Origin: Thermobaculum terrenum ATCC BAA-798
GTDB lineage: Bacteria; Chloroflexota; Chloroflexia; Thermobaculales; Thermobaculaceae
DNA: 64,000 nucleotides
Direction: 5' to 3'
Assembly (NCBI RefSeq): GCF_000025005.1
Contig: NC_013526.1
Coordinates: 992,001-1,056,000, forward strand
Each line of letters begins with the position of its first letter. Position 1 is the first letter of the stretch. The position numbers and the translations under genes are program-made. Under the pieces are notes generated by a model, which made no database searches, was not told the DNA's origin, and saw only the letters and a list, made by a program, of their open reading frames with translations. Of this stretch, positions 37,770-43,967 are shown one piece after another.

Positions 37770-38321
37770 TCAGCCCTCCATCGCTAGGGCCAGAAGGGCC
37801 CTGGCTACCTCCGGCAGGTCCTCTGCGCGCCCTGCATCCTGCAGGCCGAGGGTCGCGGCCAGCCAGCAACCGTGGGCGGCTCGCAGGGCCAGCCTGGCTG
37901 CCGGCGGGAGCGCGCCCGCCGACGTCAACCGCTCCTCCCATCGTCGTAGCCATTCGGTCACCAGCCCCAGTAGCTGGGGGGCGTTGGCCGCCGCGGCCAA
38001 CATCGGGGTAGTGTGCTCCCGGCGCTGCGGGGTAGAGGCCTCGAACAGCGCGTCCATGTAAGCCAGCAGCAGCTCTCTGCGTGTAGGCTGCTGGCCCGCC
38101 CTGGAGGTCACCTCTCTATCCAGCTCCTCAAGCATCTCCTCCAGCATGGCTTGTATCAGGGATTCTTTTGTGGGGAAGTGGTACAGCAAGCTGCCCTTGC
38201 TCACCCCTGCCTGCTGGACCACGGCGTCCAGTGTGAGCTTGTGGGCACCTTCCAGGAGCACGAACTCCCTGGCGGCTGCCAGTATCCTGTGGCGGGTCTG
38301 CTCAGATCGCGTGCCTCTCAT
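37770..38321 (-). CDS. TetR/AcrR family transcriptional regulator
   Basis: A 183-residue one-domain repressor. The N-terminal helix-turn-helix is typical: RHRILAAAREFVLLEGAHKLTLDAVVQQAGVSKGSLLYHFPTKESLIQAML (residues about 9-60), and the C-terminal ligand domain (about 70-180) has no clear subfamily. Upstream, bases 38331-38420 carry three copies of an 18-base operator, so it probably represses itself and possibly the lipoprotein gene at 38515, which runs the other way. The inducer is unknown; the C-terminal part resembles those of regulators of efflux genes, but no efflux gene is next to it. Confidence 0.9.
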   Translation of the reverse strand: MRGTRSEQTRHRILAAAREFVLLEGAHKLTLDAVVQQAGVSKGSLLYHFPTKESLIQAMLEEMLEELDREVTSRAGQQPTRRELLLAYMDALFEASTPQRREHTTPMLAAAANAPQLLGLVTEWLRRWEERLTSAGALPPAARLALRAAHGCWLAATLGLQDAGRAEDLPEVARALLALAMEG

Positions 38322-38330
38322 GCCTCAAAT

Positions 38331-38420
38331 ATAGTCCAATCAGACTGTTTATGCAATCCTTCGGAGTCTATTTATAGTCCGAGTGGACTATTTGGGTCAT
38401 TTACAGTCTGGCTGGACTAT
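38331..38420. promoter_or_regulatory. Three TetR-type operators
   Basis: Three 18-base inverted repeats share one consensus: ATAGTCCAATCAGACTGT (38331-38348), the perfect ATAGTCCGAGTGGACTAT (38374-38391) and ACAGTCTGGCTGGACTAT (38403-38420). Each has two 7-base half sites around four bases. The first starts 10 bases before the TetR ATG, so binding would block the regulator's own expression. Confidence 0.8.
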
Positions 38421-38514: not shown

Positions 38515-39027
38515 GTGAAGATAGAGGGTCGGATAAGTAGAAGGCAAGCTATAAAGGTGATGCTAGCGGGGGCGGTCGGCCTTGGGCTTGCCGCCTGCGG
38601 GGGCGGAGGCCAGAAGGATTTCTCCTCCCGCTTTGCCGCCTACCAGCCGGCGAACGAGCCCAACGGCGATCTCTCCAAGGTGGTGTGGCCCGACTTCGTG
38701 CTCGCGGCGGGGCCCGAGGTCCGCAAGCTGTACGAGTTCCAGGTACAGCACGGGGAGATCATGCGCTACATGCCCTGCTTCTGTGGCTGCGGTCAGTCGG
38801 ATGGCCACAGGAACAACCGCGACTGCTACATCCAGGCGGTCAATCCCGACGGCACCGTGGTGTTCGACAGCATGGCTCCCACCTGAGGGGTGTGCCTCGA
38901 GGTCACGCGTGACGTGATGCAGATGCTTGATCAGGGGATGACCCCCAGGCAGATACGCCTGGCGATAGACAACAAGTTCGCCTCCCAGATCGACCTAGCT
39001 ACTCCAACCCCCTACCCTCCCCAGTAG
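38515..39027 (+). CDS. PCYCGC-family lipoprotein with in-frame UGA (possible selenoprotein)
   Basis: A lipoprotein of 170 residues if the UGA at 38884-38886 is read through, 123 if not. The signal peptide ends in a lipobox (GLGLAAC), and ISRRQAIK before it may be a Tat motif. The family motif is MPCFCGCGQSDGH followed by NNRDCYI. After the UGA the same frame continues GVCLEVTRDVMQMLDQGMTP and on to a TAG at 39025, matching the end of PCYCGC proteins, which have CGVCLEI at this point. The UGA thus replaces the first Cys of CGVC and would give U-G-V-C, a redox-like UxxC. Selenocysteine or a Cys-to-stop mutation are the alternatives. The start GTG 38515 has no strong ribosome site. Confidence 0.7.
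38902..38913 (+). promoter_or_regulatory. Palindrome downstream of the in-frame UGA, weak SECIS candidate
   Basis: GTCACGCGTGAC starts 15 bases after the UGA and can fold with a CGCG loop. Bacterial SECIS elements lie right after the UGA with the loop some 16-37 bases away, so the place fits; the stem (four pairs) is short and the structure is not convincing alone. Confidence 0.3.
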
Positions 39028-42034: not shown

Positions 42035-42841
42035 ATGACAGTGACCATGACCGCAGGCAAGGCAGCCCCTCCCCCGCAGGCTCTGGCCAGGGTGATCGCC
42101 GTGGCCAACCAGAAGGGAGGGGTCGGCAAGACCACCACGACCTTCAACCTGGGGGTAGCCCTCGCTCGGCTGGGCCACCGGGTGCTGCTGGTGGATATGG
42201 ACCCGCAGGCGGCGCTCACCGCGAGCACGGGGGTGCCCGTGGCGCAGCTGGAGGCCAGCATCTACGACCTGCTGCTGGACCCCAAGCTCGACCCCGACAG
42301 CGTGCTGCAGCACACCCGCTCGGGGGTGGACCTGCTGCCGGCCAACATAGACCTCTCGGCGGCCGAGATCGAGCTGGTGAACATGACCCTCCGCGAGCTC
42401 ATCCTCAGGGATATCCTTACTCCCCTGCGCGAGCGCTATGGGTACATCCTCATAGACTGCCCCCCTAGCCTGGGGCTGCTCACGATCAACGCGCTCGCCG
42501 CTGCCGACGAGGTGCTGATCCCCCTGCAGTGCGAGTACCTGGCCACCAGGGGGCTGGCGCTGCTGCTGCGCACCCTGTCGAGGGTCCAGGAGAGGCTCAA
42601 CCCGGGGCTGAGGATCACGGGGATCCTGCCCACGATGTACGACGCGCGCACGCTGCACGCGCGGGAGGTGCTGGCCGAGCTCCAGGACAACTTCCCTGGG
42701 CAGGTGTTCGACATCACGATCAAGGACAGCGTCCGCCTAAAGGAGTCGCCCGCAGCCGGGCTCTCGGTGGTGGACTACGACCCCTCACACGACGCCGCGC
42801 AATCATATATGAAGCTAGCAAAGGAGATAGCCGATGCCTAG
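42035..42841 (+). CDS. parA: ParA/Soj family partition ATPase
   Basis: A 268-residue Walker-type ATPase that moves replicon copies apart with a DNA-bound partner. The deviant Walker A is VANQKGGVGKTTTTFNL (residues about 23-39), the A' motif is VLLVDMDPQAALTAS, and the B motif is ILIDCPPSLGLLT. There is no long N-terminal DNA-binding domain, so it is the short Soj-like form. AGGAGG is eight bases before ATG 42035. It overlaps the next gene by eight bases, forming a parAB-like pair. Together with the two replication-initiator-like genes it shows that this window carries the maintenance region of a replicon. Confidence 0.93.
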   Translation: MTVTMTAGKAAPPPQALARVIAVANQKGGVGKTTTTFNLGVALARLGHRVLLVDMDPQAALTASTGVPVAQLEASIYDLLLDPKLDPDSVLQHTRSGVDLLPANIDLSAAEIELVNMTLRELILRDILTPLRERYGYILIDCPPSLGLLTINALAAADEVLIPLQCEYLATRGLALLLRTLSRVQERLNPGLRITGILPTMYDARTLHAREVLAELQDNFPGQVFDITIKDSVRLKESPAAGLSVVDYDPSHDAAQSYMKLAKEIADA

Positions 42842-43967
42842 AAACCAGCGAGTATCCATCAGGGGCAAGGGCTCAGACATCTTCTTCGAGCACCTGAACC
42901 CATCCGAGATAAGGCCCAGGCCCGAGGACGGGACCGAGCCAACCGAACCAGCAAGCAAGCATGCTAGCATGCAAGCAGCCAAGGAAGCAAGCGCGCAAAC
43001 TCACAAGCAAGCACAGAAGCAGCCAAGCGATCAGGCAGACCAGCTTACGGAGACGACTGAGGGGACGGAAGCGCTGGAGGGAGGCGGCAGGGCGCCGGTT
43101 CTGGAGGCCCGCCAACCTTCCCAGGGAGATGAAAGCGCCACCGATGCTCGAGATGAAAGCACAGCTCTACCTGATAGCAAGCAGGCAAGCGGGCTTGCTC
43201 GTGAGCTCGCAAGCAAGCATGCTAGCAAGCAAGCAGATAAGCCTGCTAGCGAGCGTGAAGGGGAGCATGCAAGCGGGTATGCTCCCGAGTATGCAAGCAA
43301 GCTTGAGCCGGCTGCTCGCTCCGATGCTGCCACTCGGGGCGCTGTGCCGGGCGCGGGCGAAAGCCTACAAGCTAGCAGGGATGCTGGCATGCATGCTGGC
43401 GACCAAGCAAGCGCGCAAGCAGGCGAGTATGCAAGCATGCTTGCAAGCAAGCAGGATGCTGGGTCGCGCGATGGAGCGGTGGGCTCCCAGCCTCCGTCCG
43501 ATGCGTCCCAGGGGATTGTCGCCGCTACCTCGCCCGCCCCTGTCCGTGATGAGGGGCATCATCCTGCCGCTGGCCAGGGGGAGCCTTGGAGCGAGAGGGG
43601 GGTGGAGTCTGGAGACCGCCTCGGTGGCTCACGGGGCGGTGAGGATGCGGAGGACGGCTTGCCCTCAAGCGTGCATGGGAGCAAGCTGCCTCGTACCGAC
43701 CACGCGGATGTGCTGCACGCCCTGTGGAAGGACCTCTCGGAGGCGGCGACCATCACGAACGCCTTCAGGTTCACCGACACCGACATGCGCCTTCTGACGG
43801 ACGCGACCTATGCGCTCGGGAAGGAGTTCGGGATCAAGGTCTCAAAGCAGGAGGTGGTGCGCCTGGCGCTGCGCGCGCTGCTGCTGGAGTACGAGCGCGA
43901 GGGGCCGGATAGCCTCCTGGCGCGGTACGCGCTGCGCAAGCAGCAGCTGCGCCGGGGTGATATCTAG
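42834..43967 (+). CDS. ParB-position centromere-binding protein with repeat-encoded linker
   Basis: A 377-residue protein in the parB place, overlapping parA by eight bases. The first 30 residues (MPRNQRVSIRGKGSDIFFEHL) may be the ParA-stimulating tail. Residues about 40-290 are low complexity, rich in Ala, Ser, Lys, Gln and His (ASKHAS, ASKQAS units), because the DNA is packed with GCAAGC/GCATGC/GCTAGC words. The last 85 residues (LHALWKDLSEAATI ... DMRLLTDATYALGKEFGIKVSKQEVVRLALRALLLEYE) look like a ribbon-helix-helix or similar small DNA-binding domain. No ParB/Srx nuclease motif is seen. I infer a type Ib-like centromere binder whose own coding sequence contains its sites. Confidence 0.7.
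   Translation: MPRNQRVSIRGKGSDIFFEHLNPSEIRPRPEDGTEPTEPASKHASMQAAKEASAQTHKQAQKQPSDQADQLTETTEGTEALEGGGRAPVLEARQPSQGDESATDARDESTALPDSKQASGLARELASKHASKQADKPASEREGEHASGYAPEYASKLEPAARSDAATRGAVPGAGESLQASRDAGMHAGDQASAQAGEYASMLASKQDAGSRDGAVGSQPPSDASQGIVAATSPAPVRDEGHHPAAGQGEPWSERGVESGDRLGGSRGGEDAEDGLPSSVHGSKLPRTDHADVLHALWKDLSEAATITNAFRFTDTDMRLLTDATYALGKEFGIKVSKQEVVRLALRALLLEYEREGPDSLLARYALRKQQLRRGDI
42950..43462. repeat. Dense GCAAGC/GCATGC/GCTAGC words inside the parB-like gene
   Basis: Clusters occur at 42950-43023, 43171-43255, 43262-43318 and 43367-43462. Typical pieces are AAGCAAGCATGCTAGCAAGC and GCAAGCATGCTTGCAAGC. The words are largely palindromic, so both strands read alike. They match the leader (41950-41969) and the 3' flank (43968-43992) and are proposed to be the parS-like sites. 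Confidence 0.65.

Follow-up and report, generated by a model that had tools for sequence, protein, structure and literature searches.

A PCYCGC-type lipoprotein gene of Thermobaculum terrenum with an in-frame UGA that is very probably decoded as selenocysteine

The window analysed here is a stretch of 64,000 nucleotides from Thermobaculum terrenum ATCC BAA-798 (NC_013526.1, positions 992,001 to 1,056,000), and all positions given below are counted from its first letter. The features of the locus are listed in Table 1. A reading frame that begins with GTG at 38515 and ends with TAG at 39025-39027 contains a single internal stop codon, a TGA preceded by 123 codons and followed by 46 (GVCLEV...PYPPQ), and standard ORF calling ends the gene at 38886. 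The neighbouring genes encode a divergent TetR-family regulator and a convergent MBL-Rieske protein, so that the context at the window is silent on function. Upstream of the frame lie three copies of a TAGTCC-N5-GACTA-like palindrome (38332-38347; 38375-38390, which is perfect; and 38404-38419), which possibly form an operator array of the gene. With two mismatches allowed, such sites are not uncommon across the window (15 found against 12.3 expected), but three of them cluster here.

Table 1. Features of the locus, in window coordinates
Feature	Position	Strand	Basis
Divergent TetR-family regulator	37770..38321	-	Gene neighbourhood
Three TAGTCC-N5-GACTA-like palindromes		38332..38419	.	Intergenic position, flanked by the TetR-family and putative selenoprotein genes
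Putative selenoprotein gene, PCYCGC (PF13798) lipoprotein, 170 residues, predicted Sec at 124	38515..39027	+	Frame, profile match, alignment
Predicted N-terminal signal region	38515..38598	+	Sequence: SRRQ close to start, LAAC
PCFCGC motif (Cys88, Cys90, Cys92, invariant in alignment)	38773..38790	+	Sequence, alignment
UGA probably coding for Sec (residue U124), which opens the U-G-V-C motif	38884..38886	+	Sequence, alignment, codon counts
Cys127, U-x-x-C partner (putative resolving role)	38893..38895	+	Alignment
Putative SECIS hairpin GUCACG-CGUGA-CGUGAU, 21 nt after UGA	38902..38918	+	Alignment, RNAalifold, covariation

In a Pfam search, the read-through product covered positions 6-153 of the 153 in the PF13798 profile and scored 104.8 bits against a gathering cut-off of 25 bits (E 5e-30). 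A search of the genome returned this gene as the only PF13798 match, with one TGA inside. The sequence-only reading had described a frame that stays open for 46 codons past the UGA and carries the C-terminus of the family, and this description was borne out, since read-through completes the PF13798 domain. It had also given CGVCLEI as the family sequence at this point, and Cys-containing relatives (L108, L128 and L097 among them) indeed read so or nearly so. The protein carries the P-C-x-C-G-C motif of the family as PCFCGC, and the invariant columns of our alignment (A1) are Tyr73, Cys88, Cys90, Cys92, His98, Cys104, U/C124 and Cys127. At the N-terminus, SRRQ near the start and LAAC, which we take to be Tat-like and lipobox-like motifs, respectively, look by eye like a Tat-type lipoprotein signal; the Pfam TAT_signal model gave the read-through protein just 11.9 bits, below its cut-off of 22.7. 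Comparison with five close relatives yielded pN values of 0.21-0.31 and pS values of 0.71-0.84 for codons +12 to +44 after the UGA, a span that begins past the hairpin. This is the pattern of a translated tail under purifying selection.

The position of the TGA recurs in homologues. PF13798 was present in 36 of the 400 Chloroflexota genomes searched, and in 14 of these 36 a TGA breaks the domain at one shared alignment column, which is occupied by Cys in the others. From a scan of named genomes we took the best 80 loci, and among these listed matches the column held TGA in 10 and Cys in 70. The 10 TGA loci belonged to Chloroflexota-type MAGs, Thermomicrobium sp. CFH 73360, and MAGs labelled Deltaproteobacteria and Acidimicrobiia (one each), while all 68 Bacillota loci among the best 80 had Cys. 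Altogether, 116 of 119 loci could be counted: the codon at the column was TGA in 24, TGC in 69 and TGT in 23, and neither TAA nor TAG occurred in any of them. No further in-frame stop was present in these 116 loci within the 40 codons before or the 35 codons after the column. Random nonsense mutations or sequencing errors would not produce such a pattern. At least two of the 24 TGA loci are one record entered twice (L076/L093 and L069/L165), and 21 Sec sites were unique over the 63 bases compared. The three loci outside the counts had escaped the search pattern and were viewed by eye: Cys is present in both L072 and L087, the latter apparently frameshifted after it, and L080 (a MAG; G209 contig 131, position 6319) has CGA, an Arg codon, over an intact SECIS-like hairpin. 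Either Sec was lost recently in L080 or a base error in the MAG conceals its Sec codon.

A tree of 55 rows required at least six changes between U and C, with only 7 of its 52 inner branches strongly supported. One genus (g77) contains both a Cys form (L073, genome G075) and a Sec form (L082, genome G250). The Cys form L073 retains six of the seven hairpin pairs, with CGC instead of CGT as its loop codon, and this remnant may be a fossil SECIS. The residue four positions ahead of the U/C column is His at 89 of the 90 unique Cys sites and Met at the remaining one, whereas the 21 unique Sec sites have Met (15 sites) or His (6 sites). Once relatedness was taken into account, by independent pairs on the 55-row tree, the difference lost significance (median p 1). 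One frame in L058 that fitted a loose pattern was discarded as a chance frame.

The 21 unique Sec sites align from the UGA onward without gaps, and on this alignment RNAalifold, unaided, predicted a hairpin of seven pairs with a 5-nt loop, in which 95.2% of the alignment cells are paired. Two-sided changes occur in three of the seven pairs (C-G/G-C, A-U/G-C and G-C/C-G). The covariation score was 0.241 as compared to 0.127 after shuffling, and none of 500 shuffles reached the observed value; shifting the partner by 1-3 columns lowered pairing to 9-65%. All seven pairs were present at the fixed position in 15 of 21 Sec sites versus 4 of 90 Cys sites. In the window itself, the stem consists of six pairs, one of them G-U, formed by 38902-38907 and 38913-38918 around the loop CGUGA at 38908-38912. 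The sequence-only reading had placed a palindrome with a weak stem at SECIS distance. That palindrome, GTCACGCGTGAC, exists at 38902-38913, and the conserved hairpin, which overlaps part of it, is shifted to 38902-38918.

Codon choice over the hairpin was restricted in the Sec forms. The Arg codon in the loop (+8) is CGT in 20 of 21, where local usage predicts 13%, Thr at +7 is ACG in 18 of 18, and Val at +10 is GTG in 19 of 19. Scores (z) for synonymous-codon conservation in the Sec forms were 10.4, 12.8, 8.5 and 11.6 at codons +7 to +10 and fell to about 0 from codon +13 on, past the hairpin; the same four codons gave 0.5, 4.9, -0.6 and 1.6 in 22 unique Chloroflexota Cys forms. These z values are inflated by relatedness, with the Cys forms reaching 7.0 at +1 and +20. 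Although the hairpin lies in coding sequence, its conservation is not explained by the protein, given the synonymous constraint at +7 to +10.

Published limits for bacterial SECIS elements are a loop of 3-9 nt, a stem of 4-16 bp, a spacing of 16-37 nt and a G at loop position 1 or 2 (PMC13188914, legend of Fig. 2). The window hairpin lies within them, with its 5-nt loop, G as the second loop nucleotide, 6-bp stem and spacing of 21 nt. For the minimum free energy (MFE), for which the bSECIS criterion is at most -7.5 kcal/mol, the window gave -11.7 with the hairpin forced and -12.8 when free, the free optimum being another fold, and the hairpin alone gave -5.4. With the hairpin forced, 19 of the 21 Sec forms were at or below the criterion. 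When the window RNA is folded by itself, a structure overlapping the hairpin is favoured and the hairpin has a pair probability of about 0.1, and single-sequence folding was rejected as proof of a SECIS since it fails for the window (z -0.49). The mean folding z against codon shuffles was -0.81 for the 21 Sec sites versus 0.05 for the 90 Cys sites. Thus, the window RNA is unremarkable on its own, and the element is visible only by comparison, as the covarying hairpin that RNAalifold finds across the Sec forms. With its compensatory changes and a conservation far beyond what the protein requires, this hairpin fits the published model of a bacterial SECIS in loop, stem, G position and spacing.

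For the machinery, we searched the whole genome (3,101,581 bases, two contigs). It contains a tRNA-Sec with a UCA anticodon (71.2 bits), SelA (441.5 bits), SelB (345.7 bits, with neighbouring pieces) and SelD (365.7 bits); an absence of this machinery, which would have spoken against the sequence-only reading, was thus not what we found. The selA, selB and selD genes each lie at a separate site on contig C1, and the tRNA-Sec gene is located apart from them (G000:C1:1788871-1788965). SelD has its own in-frame TGA, at ASCAGU, so that the cell probably decodes Sec routinely. By its gene content, then, the host cell is able to insert selenocysteine, which is necessary but not specific evidence for decoding at this UGA. 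SelA was found in all 14 genomes with TGA-type PF13798 genes and tRNA-Sec in 13 of them. Co-occurrence was nonetheless dropped as weak proof, because SelA is common both in the phylum (320 of the 400 sampled Chloroflexota genomes) and in PF13798 genomes without the TGA (21 of 22).

These observations bear on three ways of reading the UGA. It is very likely that the gene encodes a selenoprotein and that the UGA is decoded as Sec, in place of the first Cys of a C-x-x-C motif as the sequence-only reading proposed; 24 loci have TGA at exactly this column and 92 have Cys. On the basis of frame, homology, Sec machinery, TGA recurrence, the covarying hairpin and synonymous constraint, the apparent early stop is almost certainly read as Sec. 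Alternatively, the UGA might be a true stop, created by a nonsense mutation or a sequencing error in a decaying gene. The end of the standard gene call and the absence of an exceptional fold in the window RNA alone would agree with this, but relatives with 66-71% domain identity (L092, L094-L096 and L076) retain the TGA, the column never shows another stop codon, the downstream codons are under purifying selection and the genome has Sec machinery, all of which make a true stop very improbable. Still less credible is readthrough or suppression that inserts Trp or another standard residue without selenium: the downstream frame is open, as it would require, but the aligned residue is Cys in 92 of 92 non-TGA loci counted and never Trp, a hairpin with a fixed loop codon accompanies the TGA, and the SelD of the same genome needs Sec decoding.

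If the UGA is decoded as Sec, SelB would dock on the mRNA hairpin at 38902-38918 and bring Sec-tRNA(Sec) to ribosomes at UGA 38884, and translation would proceed 46 codons beyond it. The predicted product would be an exported PCYCGC lipoprotein with a C-terminal redox motif, U124-x-x-C127, instead of C-x-x-C. Lipidation and export of the product, like the docking of SelB and the insertion of Sec itself, are here deduced from sequence.

Selenocysteine in the PCYCGC family had been thought new in the sequence-only reading, and this did not hold. In a table of a 2026 review (PMC13188914), PF13798 appears under 'CYCXC family protein (hypothetical protein OS_HP4)' among the selenoprotein families, with the motif UxxC, and the review credits OS_HP4 to Zhang and Gladyshev 2007, from an Olavius algarvensis symbiont. 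OS_HP4 is also given with UxxC in PMC9312934, and the corresponding NCBIfam model, NF041379 (OS_HP4_CYCXC), carries the name '(seleno)protein'. The window protein is homologous to OS_HP4/CYCXC (54.5 bits, E 9e-15 with NF041379), and OS_HP4 too has U-x-x-C. Its 54.5 bits fall short of the 90 bits set for an equivalog, so that it is a relative rather than an equivalog; all nine further homologues scanned also scored under 90 bits. A further difference from the OS_HP4/CYCXC family would be the lipoprotein-type N-terminus of the window protein. With the PCYCGC lipoproteins of Bacillota it shares the domain and the invariant residues, but those proteins have Cys where it has Sec (68 of 68 among the best 80 named loci). 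We found no literature on Sec in PCYCGC lipoproteins of Chloroflexota in a search that excluded most subscription papers and so does not prove absence. The lipoprotein branch in this phylum and its SECIS seem to have been little described so far. What stood as a single line in a table (PF13798, UxxC) is extended here to 24 well-supported Sec-type loci that share a covarying SECIS; most of them are from Chloroflexota, and lipoproteins are among them. In such genes, ordinary ORF calling stops too early and loses half of the redox motif.

What the protein does is a more tentative matter. The predicted model of the domain (114 residues, pLDDT 97.2) is mostly helical with two short strands. Selenoproteins of the thioredoxin fold have at least four strands in a central sheet; with its two short strands and otherwise helices, the predicted model is not thioredoxin-like. 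Foldseek returned no match in the PDB at E<=0.001 for either model, and the sole match in a PDB sequence search, Saposin-A (E 0.017), was taken as chance. We consider it conceivable, though short of an even chance, that the U124 protein is a periplasmic thiol/selenol oxidoreductase or a metal handler for copper-site or cytochrome c assembly. If a link to copper or cytochrome c is true, it would point to a part for selenium in respiratory-chain assembly.

Gene neighbourhoods of homologues were compared by description. In the Chloroflexota family f13, which has Cys forms, genes for a cupredoxin, for an Fer4_5 protein resembling NapH/NosR and for a COX2-cytochrome c protein often come after the PCYCGC gene, and an HMA-domain gene before it. 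Two loci (L065 and L084) have CcmF/E/A-like genes nearby, and in one genome (G081) the PCYCGC gene adjoins CcmH, thioredoxin and DsbD_TM genes. In Bacillota, an ABC ATPase is a common neighbour, followed by EcsB and EcsC in one scanned example. Taken together, these contexts favour extracytoplasmic redox or copper chemistry, a broad reading to which we give somewhat less than even odds. The f13 neighbours point to handling of copper or another metal, in which Cys88, Cys90, Cys92, Cys104 and His98 would serve as ligands, and U124 would be a further ligand or a redox switch; the context differs at the window and in Bacillota, and we regard this function as possible but somewhat doubtful.

It is unlikely, although several comparisons suggest it, that the protein is a CcmH-like domain whose U-x-x-C acts on apocytochrome c thiols, as the C-x-x-C of CcmH is thought to do. 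In hhalign, a 116-row profile aligned with 14 CcmH sequences paired U/CxxC with the CcmH CxxC at a score of 25.6, compared to a mean of 11.6 and a maximum of 17.7 for 60 column shuffles. The N-domain of E. coli CcmH came first in a structural comparison (Z 4.4, 3.4 Å, 72 aligned), and some homologues lie near ccm genes. In both proteins, C-x-x-C is followed by a helix and by a G-x-S/T-x-x-x-I stretch that ends in Y/F. On the other hand, the hhalign probability was 30%, and smaller alignments gave 8.4% and 13.7%, aligning just the following helix and leaving CxxC unaligned. Unrelated GlnR rows tied in Z with the CcmH N-domain, the read-through protein had no PF03918 match at E<=1 in the Pfam search, and a proper CcmH is encoded elsewhere in the genome. 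In CcmH (PF03918), unlike in PCYCGC proteins, an insertion separates C-x-x-C from the helix, and the CxCGC block is missing. The resemblance in profile and fold is a weak lead and not evidence of membership. A broader, rather improbable proposal is that PCYCGC proteins form a remote CcmH-related extracytoplasmic redox class that helps to assemble cytochrome c or copper centres, and that this step gained or lost selenium-dependence several times in Chloroflexota; if true, it would imply a selenium-dependent step in respiratory-chain biogenesis.

Elsewhere in the window, a ParA-type gene (42035-42841) is followed by a frame at 42834-43967 with many repeats of the ASKHAS and ASMQA types.
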